Shown here piece by piece: positions 15,473 through 55,274 of a stretch of DNA of 64,000 bases. The DNA comes from Amphirosellinia nigrospora. Taxonomy: Eukaryota > Ascomycota > Sordariomycetes > Xylariales > Xylariaceae. Numbering within the stretch: position 1 is the stretch's first letter; the number at the start of each line of letters is the position of its first letter. Both the position numbers and the translations under genes were made by a program. The DNA is taken from positions 3,194,316-3,258,315 of the forward strand of contig SCHM01000004.1 of NCBI GenBank assembly GCA_004123355.1. Direction: 5' to 3'. The notes beneath the pieces are model-generated. The model saw nothing but the letters and a program-made list of their open reading frames with translations. It was not told the DNA's origin and searched no databases.

Positions 15473-17823
15473 TTAATATTTTTCGCGGTCAGATTGTGGT
15501 CTCTGCCGTGCAACCCGTAAGACTCGGACTGCTGCTCGCACCATGCCGACATATGCATTGACTAGGCTGCCGACAGTGAGCGACTGTATATCCGGTGTCA
15601 TGAAGGACGCTTTGAACCCGGTCGAAGCTTGAAGGGTCAGCCCTGTTTCAATCATGTGCCGACTCGGCATGGCTAGGACTTGGCCTTTGCGAATCCGAGG
15701 GGCTGAGTTGCTTTGCTTCTCCAATACCTCTTCGTTGTCGGACGGTACCTCATCAACGTCATCGAATACCACTTGGATAGAGCCCGCCTGGCCAGCCTCG
15801 ATAGATTGTACCGGCAGTCGAAGCTCACGGATGTTGACTATTGTAGCATTTCGCCATTCGCCCTCGATCCTGGAAGCAGATAAAGCATTGCGTGCGCTTA
15901 GACGTGCATACTCCGCAGATAAGGGATGGGGTATAGACAAGCCATACCCTGGAGAAGGATGGTCGTTCGGTATAAGTGCTCCTGCATCGTCATCTTCTGC
16001 AGGGAAAGGGCCCAGAACTATTTTGTCCCCAATCGATAACCTCCCGAAGCGCAAATACCCAGTGACAACAGGGGCGCTCTCGTTAGATATCTGGTCTATT
16101 GTGCTCTGTGTGCGGCTGCGAGCTAGTTCGAATACCTCGTCAATATGAAATAGAGCCGCAGGCTGTTCGGGGTTGAGTGCCAGGGGAACGAAGTCCTGGG
16201 CAGTTGGCAGAGGTGGCACTGGTAAACTTCCTAACAGCGCATGTAATAATCCTATACCCATCCCGGTAATGGCGCTCGTCAGGACTATTGGGACCACGGC
16301 GAGCGGATCACCGGCTTGGGAAATGGCATCAACGACTTCGGCTTGCACTTTCGCTTGATCTTGGTCCGGCACCTCAGAGAAGTCTGCTGTTAGAGGCCCA
16401 ATGCCCGTAAGTAGTTTTGGTGTCCGGCCTGAAGCTTTTACCTTGGTGAGAATACTGTTAAGCTTCTCCCTCAATACATTACGTTGCGCTTTCTCGATTT
16501 TAGTTATTAAAATCGCGAGAGGGATTTGAAGCTTCAAGCACAAATCAAGATGTGCCATAGCAAGGTCCATTTCTGCGATACCGATACCCAGAGCCCCATC
16601 CGCGCCGGTCAATGAGTGCGTGCCTGTTGAGATGGCATTCTCTTCGCTTGCCGCAATACACAGTAGAGTCCAATGTGGAGCCCAGCCAACAAGTGCTCGA
16701 AAGGTCGTTCGCTGATACCGAGGGTGTCCGGCAGAATCTAATAGAAAGACGAGTCGGCCATCCTGGGCGCGGTCGTGAATGTCAGGCCAAGCTTTGATGT
16801 CCATGCAAGTGTAGTTGAAAATACTCTGGCCTTCGTAGCCAATGAGTTCCTGAGCAACCGAACTAGTTCGTCCAGAAGCGACTTCGTGACGATGCTTTAG
16901 GAGGTAACTCCTACTTCGGCCCCGGCCATCATCCAAGGTGCCATTTGCAAGTGTTCCGAGAAGAGTTGTCTTCCCTGAAGTAGTCGGCCCTGTTAACGAG
17001 ACACGAAGTTGCTCCGTTGTCGATGCCCTCTACGAGGAGCACCGTTGTCGTCATCCGCTATGGTCCTACTCTGCCCGTCCAATATTGGAATGACCAAGGC
17101 TTCTGCAACCCAGAGATCTTCGTGGTGAAGTTGAGACTGTGGATCTTCAGAGTCCTCAAGCCAGTCGCATGTACCAACAGCTTTCATTCGCTGTACTTCT
17201 ACCCTGCAGCCCAAACTAGCCGCCATCACTTTCAAACTCATCATGCTTTCATCCATCTCTTCCTTGGTCAAACCCACAAATGTTCCATCATCAGCAACTC
17301 CTATTTCATACAAAGCTCCATTTGACTCCTCCAAGCCTGGGAGTAGCTTCCCAGGCTCTTGCAAAATGGTAAGCTCGGCGTTGTCTTCGGGCAATTTGGG
17401 AACGACGAGGTCGCCCCTTGCAGTCGCATGGTCCGGCGAAGACTGTTTCAGTCGCCAAAGCAACTGCGTAGTCAAATGGTGTAGCCGATTCTGTCTAGTG
17501 TGGTTGAACGATGCAAGAAGAGCAGATTGTTTCGCTGCCTGAGTCTCTTTCAGCTTCCTATTTGCGCGAGGTCCCGTGAGACTGGTAGTAGTGCTCATTG
17601 TCTCGTAAGTTCTCCGAGGGCGTAACAAAAGATGGAGTTTATACTCAATCGGCCCGTCCTGCGGCTCGGCCTCGAGTCTTTCAACCTCGGAGTCAGATGC
17701 CGGATCCGAGTCAGCGATTGCACTGGTCGACACATTGTTGGGCCGCTTTGTTGCATCCTGGCCCGTTCTCCACGGAGAACTGACCCGCGGGGGCTCGTGA
17801 GCGAAGGTGAAGACTGAAGCCAT
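15473..17823 (-). CDS. GTPBP1/2-like translational GTPase
   Basis: Single-exon gene of about 783 residues. The N-terminal 260 residues include the family's pre-domain (SNGALYEIGVADDGTFVGLT). The GTPase domain then carries P-loop GPTTSGKT, the family's DDGRGRSRSYLLKHRHEV, switch II DSAGH, and G5-like SAITGMG. Beta-barrel domains typical of EF-Tu-like proteins follow (VTGYLRFGRLSIGDKIVLGP, then RIRKGQVL). GTPBP1 relatives bind GTP and aminoacyl-tRNA and act in mRNA surveillance and stalled-ribosome rescue. The G4 motif reads TKIE rather than the usual TKxD/NKxD. The frame shifts once just before the P-loop, near 17027, where a GGG run needs one more G. It is divergent from the Sec9-type gene. 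Confidence 0.85.
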
Positions 17824-18808: not shown

Positions 18809-21232
18809 ATGAAGAGATTTCTAGGAAAGAAGTCGAGCGAGAAGGATGATGATCCCAATCGCAATGCACTCTTCGGCTCCAGGGGTTCTAAGGGGCAACA
18901 ATCTGAGAACCCCTATGCTAAGGCTGCCCCGGACCAATACACAGAAGACAACACGAAATACGCCGGTTAGTCCATAATTCCTGGCTGGCTCACCATAGTC
19001 GGCAATGGCGGCTGCTGACTTCAGACTCCCTAGGTGGTATGACAAGATACCAGCAAGCCCGGCAAGGTCTAGAGGGCGGGCCTGGACCACAGGGCCTAAG
19101 TCGTAATGATAGCGCCGGCTCTTCAGCTACGGCTCCTCCGCCATACTCGGATCAACCAGCGCCTGGTGGCTACGGCAATAACCGGTACGGTGCATCCGGG
19201 GGGTATGCCAGTAACAGCAAGTACGCGGGGTCTAGCTCTTCGAGCGCTCCCCGACAAGGCGGATATGGTGGCCTGGGTCGAGCCGACAGTGCCAGTACTG
19301 TAAGGAAACCAGCATCCCCTTCACGGATGAAAAGTTTTACACGTTCTAAGATGTACTAGGACGCCAACCGAGATGCTCTTTTCTCCGGCGCTCGAGACCG
19401 GCATCAACAACAGGCGACCGGACCCGACAATAGCGGCAGCGGCGGCGGCGGCGGCAGCTATGACACAGGTTCTGCTTCAAGCGGCAACAAATATGATGGA
19501 TATGGCTCGCGGCGGGAATTGACTGAGGTAACCCTATCTCTTTTGGATGGTAGTATTCTAAATACCTTAGGTCTAATCCAGAACACAGGAAGAACGCGAA
19601 GCACAAGAATACCGTAGTCTGAAGGATGAGATTCACAGTACCACCCAGGCCAGCCTAACAACTAATCAGAATTCCCTTCGTTATATGAACCAGGCCCTCG
19701 ACACAGGACTGGCAACTTATGCAAGGCTTGGCGGTTAGTCAAGTTACAATGCCCGGTTGAATGTTTGGAATGCTAATTATTTCAGCACAAAATGAGCGCT
19801 TACATCACAGTGAGTAATTAGATCCGTTCCAAGACCACGTTTTGGAAAAATTAGCATTGAAAAGAGATCGTTCGCTGACTCTCCATAGCCGATCAACTTC
19901 TTGATACTGCGACGGAAAGCCATCGTCACGCAGAGGCCCAAGTGAGTAATCTCGGTGCTATTTTCTTCCTATTACGACAACCCCCAGGGCCAGGTTTCCC
20001 TTTAAGGGATAAGGGAGTGTCTGGAAGCTTCCAAAACTCCCAAAATTAGCTTTAAATAGCAATAACTGACTCCAAGTGTTGTAGACCAAGAAACTCAAGA
20101 GTCTCAAGTAAGTTCATGTCAGCTTTTTAGAAGCTAGCTAAATTTAAAAAAAAAAAAAAATAATGCCGCAAGAGCGACAATGCGTACTTGCTAACTTAAC
20201 TACCAAAAGTCGAAGCATGTTCGCGGTCCACGTTTCGAACCCATTCACGGAGGTGAGTAACTCTCGGTGCCATTTTCTTCCTATTTCGACAACCTTTAGA
20301 GCACCAGGTTTCCCTTTAAGGGATAAGGGAGTGTCTGGATGTTTCTAAAGCTCCCAAAATCAGCTCTAAATAGCAATAACTGACTCCGAGTGTTGTAGAA
20401 ACGACGTACAGCAGAAGGTATAGTGGAACACCATTTACGTGGTTAGAGATTGGAATCATCAGCTAACTTAAAGGCAGAGGAGGCTAGAATTGTGCGACAA
20501 AACCAAGACGACCGCGAAATACGCGAGTCAAGCCGAAGGGACAAATGTAAGCATCAATCTTGGATATTCTAAACTTACAATTTCGAGGTCATGACGAAAC
20601 GCGAAATACTGACATGAATGGATATAGTTGCTCAGCACTCTCGAATGGAGCGAAACTTTGCTGGCTTTGATAATCCTGAGATGCCCAGCTCGTCTACGTC
20701 AAAAAACCGTGGGGACAGAAATAAGTACAGTACGTATTCCAGTGTCGTTTTCCCGGCACAAAAAGTCTTTCATCTCTCCACAAAGCTTGGAAGATGTATT
20801 TATACTTAGAATGAGCGATAACATCTAACTCTAAATAGTGCTAGAAGATGACTCTGATGAGGAGAGTAAAGCGCAACTGGATGCCGCGAATGAGCAAATT
20901 GAGAAAGGTAAGTGGATGTGCATAGAAGGTTGCCTCTATGGCATTACATGTCACCGACGGTTCTGAATTCCTTCGACTGTACGTCACATACTGACTTCGT
21001 GATTTTCAAAGACTTGGAGCAAATGAGCATAGGCGTAGCTAGGCTCAAGGCTGTCGGAAAAGCTATGGGCGATGAGCTGGATCACGGTAACAAATTGATT
21101 GATAGGATTGGCGCGAAGGTATACAGAACGAACCCCGTAATTGCAGAGATACGGACTAACTTTCGATATAGACGGACCCTCTTGACGATCAGTATAGATG
21201 TGACGAACGCCAGAATGAACCGCATTCGTTAG
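18809..21232 (+). CDS. SEC9: Sec9/SNAP-25-type Qbc-SNARE, 13 exons, two twin introns
   Basis: Sec9 proteins give two SNARE helices to the plasma-membrane exocytic complex. Exons: 18809-18965, 19034-19527, 19589-19733, 19786-19809, 19889-19941, 20085-20107, 20210-20252, 20399-20417, 20478-20546, 20628-20729, 20839-20907, 21012-21118, 21172-21232. Phases agree throughout and give about 454 residues, the family length. The N-terminus (MKRFLGKKSSEKDDD) and Gly/Tyr/Ser-rich middle precede helix 1 (LATYARLGAQNERLHH ... LKSLNRSMFAVHVSNPF) and helix 2 (LKAVGKAMGDELDHGNKLID ... DVTNARMNRIR). Oddities: an in-frame TAG at codon 161 (19357-19359), one extra base near 21193, and Gly where the helix-2 zero-layer Gln of SNAP-25 falls. 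It could be a decaying paralogue or a functional gene with consensus errors. Confidence 0.75.
19942..20084 (+). mobile_element. introner-like element, copy A (intron 5 of the Sec9-type gene)
   Basis: This 143-nt intron begins GTGAGTAATCTCGG and ends CTGACTCCAAGTGTTGTAG. By eye it matches intron 7 over its whole length at close to 90% identity, with a central 25-bp block identical between them that contains CCCTTTAAGGG. Similarity starts and stops at the splice sites. It lies in phase 0 between codons CAA and ACC. Introns shared as sequence families are known as introner-like elements in Dothideomycetes and some other fungi. Only this pair is visible here. Confidence 0.7.
20146..20160. repeat. 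A15 homopolymer inside intron 6 of the Sec9-type gene
   Basis: Fifteen consecutive A residues in the 102-nt intron 20108-20209, lying between the two twin introns. Another A15 run lies at 6586-6600. Confidence 0.8.
20253..20398 (+). mobile_element. introner-like element, copy B (intron 7 of the Sec9-type gene)
   Basis: This 146-nt intron begins GTGAGTAACTCTCGG and ends CTGACTCCGAGTGTTGTAG. It aligns end to end with intron 5 (19942-20084), with roughly 14 substitutions and three gapped bases by my count. It is in phase 0 between GAG and AAA. The 43-nt exon before it and the exons around copy A share no similarity, so the pair arose by intron copying rather than by segmental gene duplication. 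A CCCTT/AAGGG mini-hairpin and a CTGAC branch-site-like motif are kept in both. Confidence 0.7.
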
Positions 21233-23128: not shown

Positions 23129-25492
23129 ATGGATCAAAACACGGATCAGCACAGGTCTAAACGGCGCAAGACAAAGGGAAATGACCCCACAGTTGTCAAA
23201 ATTGGGGACAAGACGATATCATTGAGTGCGTTTCTTGCGCCACCACCAGACAAAGCTGAAGAGAAATCGTCATCTGTGCCTGCGAACAATGATCCTACCT
23301 CAAATGAAGAGAAGGAGGACCAGCAGAACCCACGGATGAGATAGATGAGCAAGGTTTAAGGGAAAAGTCTCAAGATGTCAGTGGTGGGCCGCCAAAGAAG
23401 GCGAAAGGCGAGCGGGACACGCCTATGCTGAAGGCCAGAAAAGCGTTGCCGATATGGCTTACCGCGACCAGATCAAGGCGAGCTTGCGCGGTGATAACGA
23501 CATCCTGCTTATTGTTGGCGAGACTGGCTCTGGAAAGAGTACACAGACACCCCAATTTCTCTGTGAAGAGTCATGGTGTTGTAAGAAGAAGGTGCGCGTA
23601 AAGTCGGACATTGTGGGTGTTGGTGGGATGATCGCCATTACGCAGCCACGTCGAGTTGCCGCCACAACGCTGGCCAGCAGAGTAGCGCGGGAGATGGGCA
23701 CACCACTGGGTGCTGCTGGTGAAGGCTCAGTTGGTTACTCGGTGCGATTCGATCACAAGGTTCCCAAGGGCGCCAAGATCAAGTTCCTCACCGAAGGTAT
23801 GCTCTTACAAGAGCTCTTACGAGATCCGGATCTACGACAATACAGCGCTATTATCGTTGATGAGATCCACGAGAGAAGCGTTGACGTCGACTTAATTACT
23901 GGCTTTCTGAAGCAAATTCTCGCGAGTGACAAAGCTGGACGAGGTGGGATACCACTCAAAGTTGTTATCATGAGTGCAACTGCAGACATTGAGAAAATCG
24001 AATACTTTTTCAACCCAGAAGATTCGCCCTCTACCTTGAAGTTACTCCAGATCAAAGGCAGACAGTATCCAGTAGAAATTAAGTATATGGACAAGCCTGT
24101 GCCGGACATACAAGAGGCACTGGTGAAGAAAATCTTCGACATTCACCTACATGAATCATTACCCGGTGATATTCTAGCATTTCTTACAGGCCAGGAGGAG
24201 ATTGAGGCGGCTCAGCGCCTCATCGAAGATCACAGTGCCACATTAGCTTCAAACGTACCAAAGCTTCTTGTGTGCCCCTTTACGGGCAGCTCTCAATCCA
24301 GGCACAACAGGAGGCCTTTCAACCGGCAAAGACCAAGTACACTCGAAAAGTGGTCTTAGCGACCAATATCGCAGAGACATCAGTCACCGTTCCCGGTGTA
24401 CGCTACGTCGTCGACTGCGGCAAAGCAAAGGTGAAACAGTTTCGCGCACGGCTGGGAATGGAGTCTCTCCTAGCCAAGGCGATATCCAAATCCTCAGCAA
24501 TTCAACGAGCAGGTCGAGCAGGTCGTGAAGGGCCAGGAAAGTGCTTTAGGCTATACACGTTCGAAACATACAAGGGACTGGAGGAAGCGGATCTGCCCGA
24601 GATTCTTCGCAACGATGTGTTAGGTGCGGTCTTGACGATGAAGGCACGCGGCATCAACGACATTCTCTCATTCCCGCTGATGGACTTTCCGGACATCGAG
24701 GCCGTCGGCAAGGCGCTGATACACCTATCACCCTGGGCGCTCTCGGGAACGACGGCAGCATAACGGAGATCGGACGCAAACTGGCCTTGTTCCCTGTATC
24801 CGCCCATACGGCCGTGTTATCCTCACCGCAGCCTCCCTGAATTCGACTGTCTACTCGAAGTCATCGACGTGATCGCCGTCATCACGTCGGCGAGACCATC
24901 TTCCACCAGATCCAGACGGAAGACGACAACGAGCGGGACGCGATCGAGGAGGCGCGCAGGGAACTGGAGCGGCGCGAGGGCGACATCTTGACCTTCCTCA
25001 CGACGATGCAGCGGTACGCGGGCGAGAACGCAGACCGCATCGCATGGTGTCGGACGCGGCGCGTGAGCGTGCGCAACATGCGACAGGCCCTCAACATTCG
25101 GCGACAGCTACGCGGCATCTGCGTGAGAGAGAAGCTGCTGTCCGAGGCGCCGGCGCCGGATCCGCAACCCTTCGTGCCGCTGTCGCCCGAGCGCGCCGAC
25201 GTGCTGCTGCGCTGCTTCATGCGCGCTTCGCGAGCAAGGCGGCCCTCCTCGCGCCCGACTCCAGCTACGTCACCGTCCACGGCAAGCACGTCGTCTCCGT
25301 ACACCGTCCAGCGTCCTCCACGGACAGAAGAAGGAGGCCATCATGTTCCTCGAGCACGTCTTCACGCAGAAGAACTACGCCAAGAAGGTCAGCGCCATAC
25401 AAGCCGACTGGATCATCGAGGGCATGGGGGCGAGGTCGTTCCTTGATCGGCTGGTGATGAAAGCTTCGGCTAGGGATAGTGTGTCGTGTTGA
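23129..25492 (+). CDS. DHR2: DEAH-box RNA helicase, Dhr2 type
   Basis: An intronless gene of about 790 residues. After a basic leader (SKRRKTKGNDPTVVKIGDK), helicase motifs appear in order: I GETGSGKST, Ia ITQPRRVAA, II DEIH, III SAT, IV AFLTGQEEIE, V TNIAETSVT and VI QRAGRAGR. The ratchet/HA2 region (LLRCFMRA, then HGKHVVSVH) and an OB-like end follow. The closest match I recall is Dhr2, a nucleolar helicase of small-subunit rRNA processing. The frame is broken about nine times (near 23328, 23457, 24278, 24735, 24811, 24838, 24889, 25229 and 25305). In most cases one more G or C in a short run restores the family sequence, so the gene is probably whole in the organism. Confidence 0.78.
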
Positions 25493-30313: not shown

Positions 30314-32210
30314 ATGTCTCGAAGTCCTCAGGTTGGTGACCGGCTGTCGTATGATGGGGCAACATGTACGGTAAGATATGTGGGTGAGGTCGCTGGCACT
30401 TCGGGCGCCTGGCTTGGCGTCGAATGGGACGACGCCGCCAGAGGTAAACACAACGGTTCGCACAAAGGAGCGAGGTATTTCACTTGTGAGTATTGATTCA
30501 TGATGTGGTGATATTTTGTTTTTCTTTTTTTTATCACTGCAATATACTAAGTGCTCTCGCTAGGTCGGTCACGCTCAGCGACCCCCGCCTCTTTTGTGCG
30601 GCCTACGAGACCCGCTGAGGCACCCGTCAGCTTCATCGGTGCTCTGCAGGACAAATACACTGCGGAATTGTCGAACACTGTTGCCATTCAATTCTCGGGG
30701 AAAGTAGCAGAAGAGGTTGGCTTTGAGAAGACCCGAAGCAAGCAGGCCCAGCTCTCGGAGCTCCGATATGCCGTCCTCGATGGCACACGCATTGCTACTG
30801 TCTACGAGGAAGGGGACCCGACTATTACCGACACATGTTCAAAGGTCGTTGAGCTGGATCTCAGTCGAAACCTCTTCAAGAGCGTGGGGACCGTTGCGGC
30901 TATTTGCTCCGAATTACCACGACTACGAGAGCTGCGGCTGAAGTGAGTTAGGCCCTTCTTGCTCTCGTCTTTTTTCTTGTTTCTTGTTTTTGGGGGGGTT
31001 TTAAGCACTTAACTAAACTCATTACGCTAGTGGTAACCGCTTCCAAGGTGTACTTGAAGACGAAGGCCTTGACGGGGCAAATAAGAGCCTTGAGAGTGTG
31101 AAGGAGCTGGCACTTGAAGAGACGCTTATGAGTTGGGAAGAAATTGGCCATATCGCAACAAAATTCGATACTCTGTCTGCACTTTCTGCGAGCACAAATC
31201 AGTTGTCTAGCTTGCCACCTATAGCACTCTCTTCCCTCTCATCACCCTTTCCTCTCTCAATCTCGAGTTTAACGACTTCGCTGCCATTACCCAGTTGGGT
31301 AGCCTCACAGCCTTAACGGCTCTCCGCCAACTGCATCTCAAGGGAAACAACATCTCAGCGATCCAATTAGCTGACTCGGATGTCTCATTGCCAGTATTCT
31401 CCACCAACCTGCAGTATCTCGACGTGTCGTATAACCGGGTCTCCTCATGGACATTTGTGGATGAATTGCCAGCCTGCTTTCCAGGACTAACATCATTGCG
31501 CTTTGCTCACAATCCTATTTACGAGAGCCCCGATCCCGAGCTCTCTACGAACTCTAAGAACCACACAGAAGAGGCCTATATGTTCACCATCGGGCGGCTT
31601 GCGAATCTCAAGACTCTGAATTTCGGTACTATCTCTGCAGCGGATCGGCAAGATGCCGAGATGTTCTACCTGGCCCACATTGGGAAACACCTCGCCACCG
31701 TGCCCGAGACGCAAGAAGCCGAGATCCTCCAATATCACAAGCGATATGCGGAGCTATGCGAGGCGTACGGCGCACCAGCCGTAAACCGGAGGAAGCAGGT
31801 CAACCCAGCTTTCTGGAGGCCAGACTCGTCACCATCCAATTCGTATTTCACCCCGACGGACAAGATGCTATGCAAAGAGTCACGAAGGTCCCAAGAGCTT
31901 TGATATCTACGCCGTCAAGGGCATAGCGGGCAAGCTTTTCGGCGCGAAGCCACTGTCTCTACGACTGATATGGGAAACAGGTGAGTGGGATCCCGTGGCG
32001 GGGTTCGATGACGAGGTGGAAGATAGTAGCGGGATGAAGAGGAGCTGTCAGCTGCAGAGGGGAGAGAAGCGGTCAAATCAGGAGACGACTCACAACAGGG
32101 GGAAGGCTGGTAAATGGGTCAAACGCGAGGCCGAGCTGCCAGACGGGCCCCGGCAGCTAGGCTTCTGCGTCGATGGATCGGAGGCTAGAATCAGGATCGA
32201 ATTGCGATGA
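30314..32210 (+). CDS. tubulin-folding cofactor E (Pac2/TBCE)
   Basis: Exons 30314-30485, 30564-30942 and 31031-32210. An N-terminal CAP-Gly domain (VGDRLSYDGATCTVRYVGEV, GTSGAWLGVEWDD, GSHKGARYFTC) binds the alpha-tubulin tail. Leucine-rich repeats follow (VVELDLSRNLFKSVGT, LRELRLNGNRFQG, LRQLHLKGNNISA, LQYLDVSYNRVSSW). A ubiquitin-like C-terminal domain ends in ELPDGPRQLGFCVDG and ARIRIELR. Cofactor E works with cofactors B, C and D in alpha-tubulin folding and heterodimer assembly. The frame breaks several times in exon 3 (near 31240, 31812, 31895, 32030 and 32110). At two of these, GCTTT needs to be GCCTTT to restore the family sequence, so base-calling faults are likely. Confidence 0.87.
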
Positions 32211-50535: not shown

Positions 50536-52297
50536 ATGGCGGAGAAACTTATTAGTGCAGAGGAAGGTGAGGAAACAACAAAACGCCCGAGACTACGAAG
50601 GCTTCGGCCTAGCTCACCTTGTTGAGATCATCCTTTCTCATTGGAGGTCGTGATAAATACATAGCTAATGAATCGAGTTAGTTACAAAACACACAACACC
50701 CGAAAGCTGTTGGGTGGTGTTGTATGGCAATGTTTACGACGTAACAGAGTTCCTGCCTTCACATCCCGGAGGCTCGAAGATCATTCTTCAGCTCGCTGGT
50801 CGCGATGCTACTGACGAGTACGACCCCATTCATCCACCGGGAACATTGGAGGATAACTTGAAACCCGAAGCCAAGCTTGGGCGGATCGACCCGGCGACGT
50901 TGATCAAGGCCACCAAACCGGCGGCCAAGGAGGAGAAGAAGGCCGAGAAGGAAGACTATAGCCCGCCACCTATGGAGACGTTGCTAAATCTCGACGAGAT
51001 TCAGGAGGTAGCTCACAAGCAAATCTCGACCAAGGCATGGGCATATTATTGGTCCGCGAGCGACGACCTATGGAGCAAGACGAATAACAACGCCGTGTAT
51101 CGAGACATCCTACTACGGCCGCGTGTCTTCCTCGACTGTACAGGTTGCGATCTCACGACGACGGTGCTGGGCGAGCACAAGCTGGGCCTACCTATATTCG
51201 TGGCGCCAGCCGCCATGGCGCGCCTCGCACACCCGGACGGCGAGCAGGGGATCGCGCGGGCGTGCGCGCGGTTCGGGGCGATGCAGCTCATCTCCAACAA
51301 CGCGTCGATGACGCCCGAGCAGATCGTGTCGGACGCGAACCGGGCAGACGTTCGGGTGGCAGCTGTACGTGCAGCGGACCGGGCCAAGAGCGAGGCCATG
51401 CTCGCGCGCATCAACGCGATGCCCGACCACTTCAAGTTCGTCTGCCTGACGCTCGACGCCCCCGTGCCGGGCAAGCGCGAGCTCGACGAGAAGCAGAGCT
51501 TCGCCGGCGCCCTCAAGGTCGCCTCGGGCGTCAAGACGGCGGGCGAGCCCGAGCGGCCCGGCGGCGGCGGCGTCGGGCAGCAGCTCTTCTGGGGCACGGC
51601 GGCCGACCTCACGTGGAAGGTCACGCTCCCTGGCTCGCGAAGCACACGAACCTGCCGATCGTGCTCAAGGGCGTGCAGACTCACGAGGATGCTTACCTAG
51701 CGGCCAAGTACGCCCCCAGGTCAAGGCCGTGATCCTGTCTAACCACGGAGGACGGGCTTTGGACACGGCGCCCCCGGCTGTACATACGCTGCTCGAGATT
51801 CGAAAGTACTGCCCCGAGGTCTTCGACCGGATTGATGTGTGGGTTGATGGTGGCATCAAGCGTGGCACAGATGTCGTGAAAGCACTTGCGCTCGGAGCTA
51901 AGGCTGTCGGTGTCGGACGAGCCGCGTTGTTTGGCTTGGGTGCCGGTGGTCAGGCGGGTGTTGAGCGTACCCTGGAGAGTATGTCTTGATTCTTATTCCA
52001 TTGACTTCTCTTTTTTCATCCCACCTTTATCAGAGAGACTATGCTAATTCTTATTTCAACTTGGATAGTCCTCCAAGCCGAGACCGTCACCTGTATGAAG
52101 CTACTAGGCGTGGAGAAAGTCTCGGAGCTTGGCCCAAGACATGTGAGTCTGACACCACCAAGTTCATTGTTTGATATCAGCTAGACTAATACATATAAAT
52201 GCAGATCAACACGAGAAAAGTCGAACGAGACATATTCGACGGTGATGCGAACTTGGAGACGTTTGGGCTGTGGGAGAAGGTCAAGTCCAAGCTGTGA
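50536..52297 (+). CDS. CYB2: flavocytochrome b2-type L-lactate dehydrogenase with PTS1 end
   Basis: Exons 50536-50566, 50682-51978, 52069-52142 and 52205-52297 give about 498 residues. A cytochrome b5 domain ([20 protein letters not shown], heme ligand in HPGG) is followed by the FMN-dependent alpha-hydroxyacid dehydrogenase barrel: [43 protein letters not shown] (catalytic His), [20 protein letters not shown]. It oxidises L-lactate or a related 2-hydroxy acid. The start [11 protein letters not shown] goes straight into the b5 fold with no mitochondrial presequence, and the end KSKL is a PTS1 signal, so a peroxisomal form is likely, unlike yeast Cyb2. Two frame breaks, near 51628 and 51715, each need one more C in a C run. 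Confidence 0.9.
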
Positions 52298-54104: not shown

Positions 54105-55274
54105 ATGTCGGACCCGAAGCTGGATGCGACTGAGACTGGCAGAGCGCCGAGGGCAAAGAAGAGCCACTTCAAGCGGTTCTGGTGGGCTTACTTACTCGTC
54201 TTCCTTATCGTTGCTACCGTCGTGGTGGTGCCTGTGGTGTAAGTTCGCCGCCTCAAATGGCCCGTCTGCGGGTAGTTTTTGAATAGGTTTATACTGATTG
54301 GATGCTCAGATTACTCGTGGCGGTACCGAAGCTGGCGCAACAGAAGTTAAACTCGGCCAAGTTAACGATAGACGGAATTACCGTCACAAATACACAGGCG
54401 GGCTCTTTCGTGATGGGCATCAACTCTACGATCAAAGCAGACGACTCGGTTCATGCGACTATCGATGCGTTTGAAGGGACTATGTACTTGGCGGACGTCG
54501 ATCCTCCGTTGGCAATTGCGCAGATCAACTTCCCTCAAACGACTTCATCCTCGGAGCAGGCCGTCAACGTAACTCAGAATATCCAGATCTCTGATCTCGG
54601 CTCTTTCACGACATTCAACAAGGCTCTTCTAGCCAAAGAGTCCGTCAACATACAAGTAAAGGGAGACACCCACATCCATGTCAGTGGCATCTCTCGTGCC
54701 TACCCTGTCACATTCGACAAGACGGTGACCCTGAAGGGTCTTAACAACTTCAACGGACTTTCGATCTCGGACCACCATCAACGCTCTGGCCACCAAGAAC
54801 AATTTCAACGCAACGGTCCACATTCCCAACCCCTCAGTATTGACCTTGGATATCGTAAGTTGTTGCTTGATTACACCCTTCAAAAAGCCTAGGCTTGTAG
54901 GTGTTCTTGGTTCATTTGATCCGCGAGACTGACAAGACGGGAAACAGGGAAACACAACCTTCACAAACTACTTCAACGGCTCGGATATCGGCCAGACTTA
55001 CATCAACAACCTCGTGCTCTACCCCGGCGATAACACGTTCGCCTCGACCTCGGACATCAAGCAGCTACCAATCGTCAACGCCCTGACGCAGGAGCCCTTC
55101 TGCGAACTCAAGGGAAAGCTACCCTTTCAGCTCCAGGGAAAGAACGTCGTGAACAACGGCCAAGTCCTCCCGTACTTCCGAGACGCGCTTGCGGCGAGCA
55201 ACCAGAGCGTTACTATCGATATAGGCGATGCGGCGAACAAAGCAGGTCTCCCTGCCATGTGCCTTAGTGTCTAA
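54105..55274 (+). CDS. DUF3712 single-pass membrane protein
   Basis: Exons 54105-54238, 54310-54854 and 54948-55274 give about 335 residues. A basic cytosolic leader (RAPRAKKSHFKRFWW) precedes one membrane helix (AYLLVFLIVATVVVVPVVLL), so topology is N-in. The rest is an extracytosolic, beta-rich LEA2-like domain: LNSAKLTIDGITVTNTQ, SFVMGINSTIKADDSVHATI, TVTLKGLNNFNGLSI, and LVLYPGDNTFASTSDIKQLP. This is the pattern of fungal DUF3712 proteins, whose function is unknown. Several N-glycosylation sequons are present. Near 54768 the frame needs two bases (one AC step of an ACACCACC-like run) to read SDTTINALATKNNFNAT. Its location, vacuolar or plasma membrane, is not decidable. Confidence 0.68.

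Follow-up and report, generated by a model that had tools for sequence, protein, structure and literature searches.

The window, that is, the whole stretch of 64 kb of DNA that was analysed, contains a gene encoding a Sec9/SNAP-25-type SNARE on the forward strand (18809..21230); the parts of this gene described below are all located on this strand. According to a gene model built by hand on canonical splice sites, the gene comprises 14 exons and 13 introns. It starts with an ATG at position 18809, all 13 introns begin with GT and end with AG, and a single frame is maintained up to the last exon. The 3' end of the model is approximate due to an apparent frameshift in the last exon (21172-21230), which occurs soon after a TDPLDDQ motif. 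The expected short Sec9 C-terminus apparently lies in another frame, and the frame as read continues for about 50 more residues; the frameshift may stem from an indel in the assembly or be genuine. Intron density is high in this gene, with 13 introns and tiny exons of 24, 23, and 19 nt; elsewhere in the window long unbroken ORFs occur, e.g., one of 518 aa at 15473-17029. Other genes in the window encode a KH-domain protein (883-1791), a DEAD/DEAH helicase (23349-24359), a tubulin chaperone E-like LRR protein (31211-31903), a protein of the flavocytochrome b2 type (Cyt-b5 plus FMN_dh; 50672-51700), and a DUF3712 protein (54287-54892). Neither tRNAs (ARAGORN) nor members of an Rfam family were detected in the window.

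When the predicted Sec9-type protein was compared to the PDB set by phmmer, yeast Sec9 (9cru_L) was matched with an E value of 9.5e-18 over residues 212-420, whereas chains of SNAP-29 and SNAP-25 reached only about 1e-3. No SNARE family from Pfam was recovered at E <= 0.1, the sole Pfam match being KxDL (E 0.045). A scan of viral contigs for orthologues using a stretch of Sec9 yielded none. The protein alignment to yeast Sec9 proceeds without gaps across the junctions of two introns, here referred to as A and B.

Introns A and B of the Sec9-type gene

Intron A (19942..20084) and intron B (20253..20398), the second and more symmetrical copy, are 143 and 146 nt long, respectively, and are the longest introns of the gene, in which the other 11 range from 52 to 109 nt. 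Both are in sense orientation and, by the gene model, in phase 0. These lengths, the start at 19942, the end at 20398, and the phase are exactly those given in the first-pass annotation; its numbering of the two as introns 5 and 7 has to be changed, since counting every intron they are 6 and 8 of 13. The two are 168 nt apart, one on each side of intron 7 (20108..20209; 102 nt, phase 2). Between A and intron 7 lies exon 7 (20085..20107; 23 nt), and exon 8 (20210..20252; 43 nt), which aligns ungapped to yeast Sec9, extends from intron 7 to B. Intron 7 did not match A or B in a self-comparison of the window; it contains an A-run of about 15 nt.

Aligned from the first GT to the last AG, A and B are identical in 130 of 146 columns, with 11 transitions, two transversions, and three gap columns separating them. 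This corresponds to 89.0% identity over all columns and 90.9% ungapped (K2P 0.099), in agreement with the roughly 90% previously estimated by eye. BLAST E values of the match were about 1e-49 and 2e-47, and at about 1e-47 to 1e-49 a chance similarity is ruled out. An identical core, reported earlier as 25 bp, is indeed present, but the longest identical run actually measures 36 nt (alignment columns 52-87; 19992..20027 in A and 20304..20339 in B) and includes a central palindrome around CCCTTTAAGGG. Also identical are the last 10 nt and, as already noted, the CTGAC branch site, the branch-site A of which is located 15 nt from the end; both introns terminate in TGTAG at the acceptor. The donor reads GTGAGT in A as well as in B, and the acceptor of A is TAG. 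The similarity is bounded by the splice sites, except for one common exon base on the 3' side. Compared without gaps, the 60-nt flanks of A and B agree at 20 of 60 positions upstream and at 9 of 60 downstream, bearing out the earlier statement that the neighboring exons are unrelated. As the flanks are unrelated and the protein is ungapped relative to yeast Sec9, a segmental duplication is ruled out. Inspection by eye of the printed sequence flanking the two copies revealed no target-site duplication. There is good support for the copying of a single intron as one piece, bounded by its splice sites and without its exons.

Both introns contain in-frame stops and neither length is divisible by three, so both must be removed to obtain a Sec9 product. 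Since the fit to yeast Sec9 is ungapped at both junctions, excising exactly A and B gives a normal Sec9 protein. Gene model and protein fit together suggest that A and B are removed by the spliceosome.

Symmetry, folding and divergence of the two copies

Compared to its own reverse complement, B outscored every one of 300 dinucleotide shuffles (z 3.59). Control windows of the same length were taken at every 7th start in the 64 kb with the exclusion of those near A and B; of these 9027 windows, 24 equalled or exceeded the score of B, which was 20. At 61 mirrored positions of B, 49 Watson-Crick and two G-U pairs occur. A 9-nt arm near the 5' terminus (20259..20267; intron positions 7-15) pairs at 8 of 9 positions with a 9-nt arm near the 3' terminus (20386..20394; intron positions 134-142), which is located between branch site and acceptor; a pairing of this quality was attained by 69 of 20,000 interior shuffles and by 38 of 9027 windows. 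The corresponding arms of A pair at 5 of 9 positions and those of the other 11 introns at 4 to 6. Global symmetry is absent from A (z 0.07; 3839 of 9028 windows as high), and an unrelated 53-nt intron at 21119-21171 displays a low p value for global symmetry as well (0.007). We count both results against the reading of A and B as copies of an introner-like element (ILE), which is discussed below. At the local scale, an inverted repeat in A does reach significance (p 0.013 from shuffles; 78 of 9028 windows). The top self-reverse-complement scores of the window, 37 and 35, occur at 24991-25136 and 51437-51582, in or near ORFs.

RNA folding of the two introns was not clearly more stable than that of shuffled sequences (z -0.98 and -1.29), which we also count against an ILE. 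The antisense strand of B was the only one of four DNA folds to stand out (z -3.37, as opposed to -0.97 for A). A consensus RNA fold comprised 33 pairs, 30 of them unchanged and three retained despite a one-sided change; between the two copies no pair had changed on both sides, and no covariation was found in this fold. Because B is symmetrical, A is not, and RNA folding is unremarkable, the symmetry is regarded as a signal of moderate strength in the B copy alone.

The polarity of the two copies was addressed by means of pairing schemes. The scheme derived from B alone and a joint scheme both pointed to an ancestral symmetry kept in B and decayed in A. In the joint scheme, 36 of 61 positions are paired in both copies, 13 in B only, one in A only, and 11 in neither. 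In simulations assuming equal age (4000 runs each), which used 14 changes per run compared to the 16 differing columns observed, a score gap as large as the real one arose in 0.6% and 2.7% of the runs. However, the scheme derived from A alone reversed the direction (7 positions paired in A only and one in B only, of 57), as some of the same columns serve the local hairpin in A. Because the schemes disagree, we drew no conclusion as to which copy is older. At a K2P of 0.099, the case for a recent gain is weak. An ongoing multiplication of ILEs has been considered likely where copies are 98-99% identical (excerpts of PMC4457414); A and B differ by about 10%, which speaks against the first-pass description of the gain as possibly active.

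Copy number and origin of the intron pair

In a self-comparison of the 64 kb by blastn (word size 9, low-complexity filter on), no repeat pair other than A and B was listed at E <= 1e-3. A search by nhmmer using both copies yielded no third copy in the window, the next match having an E value of 1.9. The known copies thus number two, both in one gene, which we count against an ILE. Exact patterns gave 0 and 0 matches in prokaryotic genome contigs and 0, 1, 0, and 0 matches in viral contigs, both of which are unlikely to contain a fungal intron. The single viral match was an 18-mer without wider similarity (best nhmmer E 0.0053 over 23 nt). A plasmid collection, likewise a poor place for a fungal intron, returned just two partial matches (E 1 and 5), and six fragments looked for in the full text of papers did not occur there.

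We consider it probable, at roughly three in four, that A and B both represent copies of the same ILE in an ascomycete-type fungus. The assignment to the fungi is based on the Sec9 match and on the gene structure. Of the introner-like family proposed in the first-pass annotation, the copying of a unit from GT to AG stands and an ILE is the best explanation, while a third copy is missing from the 64 kb. This reading is preferred on account of the length of the introns, their exact ends, the lack of a visible target-site duplication, the palindromic symmetry of B, and a published parallel of two ILEs in one gene. An ILE would be a complete spliceosomal intron that inserts exactly into coding sequence, in sense orientation and without duplicating its target site; being equipped with a donor, a branch site, and an acceptor, it would be spliced out at once. 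A and B would accordingly have been gained rather than inherited, and further copies would be expected elsewhere in the genome. Most likely, A and B were inserted independently of each other from a source elsewhere, and subsequent decay led to the difference of about 10% between them. Movement would proceed via RNA, the folded, excised intron RNA being either reverse-spliced or inserted during break repair. Similar proposals, namely reverse splicing into DNA or RNA, or folded intron RNA acting at break repair, are found in excerpts of PMC8469720, PMC12403724, and PMC3443670. That no duplications are visible and both copies are in sense orientation favors, within the limits of so few copies, an RNA route over a DNA transposon.

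Alternatively, copying may have been confined to this gene. An excised intron would then have entered its own (pre-)mRNA or gene by reverse splicing, or have been copied in during repair, leaving two copies and no genome-wide family. Such an event would account for the location of both copies 168 nt apart in one gene and for the lack of others in the 64 kb, and reverse splicing into the own mRNA is a textbook route of intron transposition (PMC3443670). However, with intron 7 situated between the two copies and 11 other introns still in place, recombination of a spliced cDNA would probably have had to be limited to a very short tract, and the route has no need of the symmetry of B. In addition, up to 90% of the recent intron gains in Z. 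tritici are ILEs, and other intron duplications, including tandem ones in the same gene, make up less than 1% (excerpts of PMC4457414). We regard it as unlikely, yet as a serious competitor of the ILE reading. A further possibility is that A and B are the whole family, palindromic intron RNA having been the mover in a cis copying event over 168 nt and across an older intron; this appears rather doubtful. The near full-length inverted repeat of B, with its 49 Watson-Crick and two G-U pairs at 61 positions, would also suit a MITE-like, non-autonomous DNA transposon that has inverted repeats and fortuitous splice sites, as in algal introners. Against this, the similarity stops precisely at the splice sites, A and B are both in sense orientation, and no target-site duplication is visible, although two copies are too few to argue against a short or absent one; a transposon of this type is very unlikely.

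Two unrelated older introns might instead have been homogenized by gene conversion or concerted evolution, which could conceivably act on introns sharing one gene, or an old duplication of exon and intron might have been followed by divergence of the exons. Conversion, however, depends on sequences that are already homologous and would not end precisely at both GT and AG, and the exons lack any duplication, the protein being ungapped there relative to yeast Sec9. Either history is highly improbable. Small errors are possible in this assembly, given the apparent frameshift in the last Sec9 exon, but 16 differing columns and different flanks are unlike an assembly duplication, and an ungapped Sec9 protein is restored at both junctions; an artefact of assembly or gene model has a negligible chance of being the cause.

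The origin of new introns has long been under discussion, and fungal ILEs belong to a small number of systems in which their gain can be followed. Should the family prove real, it would represent one more fungal ILE family, located in a conserved secretory gene. B would then retain the palindromic anatomy with near-terminal stems that Fekete et al. linked to multiplication in Xylariales, in this case with single canonical introns of unrelated sequence, which would hint that copying needs a folded RNA and not any particular sequence. If there are no other copies, the pair would bear on intron copying inside one gene, and if A and B are the whole family, they would provide a clean natural case of cis intron transposition, apart from a genome-wide introner burst. 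By itself, the pair decides neither for an ILE family nor for copying within the gene.

Relation to known multiplying introns

With introners as defined by Gozashti et al. in 2022, A and B share a whole-intron similarity that extends to both boundaries and lies far below the cut-off of 1e-5; they differ in number, with two introns in 64 kb compared to families of at least four. Excerpts of PMC9860276 describe ascomycete introner families, of which only those with at least four introns were kept, as devoid of TIRs or TSDs. We count the TIR-free state of these families against the ILE reading of A and B, though TIRs have been seen by others (excerpts of PMC8469720).

ILEs are introns that have multiplied into hundreds of near-identical copies and are longer than regular introns; four Passalora genes harbor two ILEs each, 145-626 bp apart, and one of these pairs sits on either side of a conserved intron (excerpts of PMC4457414). 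A and B resemble the ILEs of Capnodiales (Fulvia fulva, Dothistroma septosporum, Zymoseptoria tritici, Passalora) in being canonical introns copied end to end and inserted exactly, in exceeding ordinary introns in length, and in being paired in one gene around another intron, a likeness drawn from published descriptions. In contrast to those ILEs, which are defined by hundreds of copies in unrelated genes and are 98-99% alike in likely active families, A and B are the two known copies, both in one gene, and 89% alike.

For multiplying introns and stwintrons of Xylariales, excerpts of PMC8469720 and PMC12403724 describe internal symmetry, a palindrome, near-terminal arms of 9-10 nt, and no target-site duplication. 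A and B differ from these in reading as single canonical introns and in lacking the 10-nt palindrome WTTCTAGAAA and the printed letters of NTIRE-10. A [D1,2] stwintron, in which two introns are nested and the first letters are GGT, was rejected for A, which follows CAA and thus lacks the required GGT; B follows GAG. As in sister stwintrons and type-2 cropped sister introns of Hypoxylaceae and Xylariaceae, B is symmetrical against its own reverse complement; a palindrome is present in the middle, the 3' arm of B lies between branch site and acceptor, and no target-site duplication is visible. A and B are likely to represent another instance of a kind of intron copying that has already been described.
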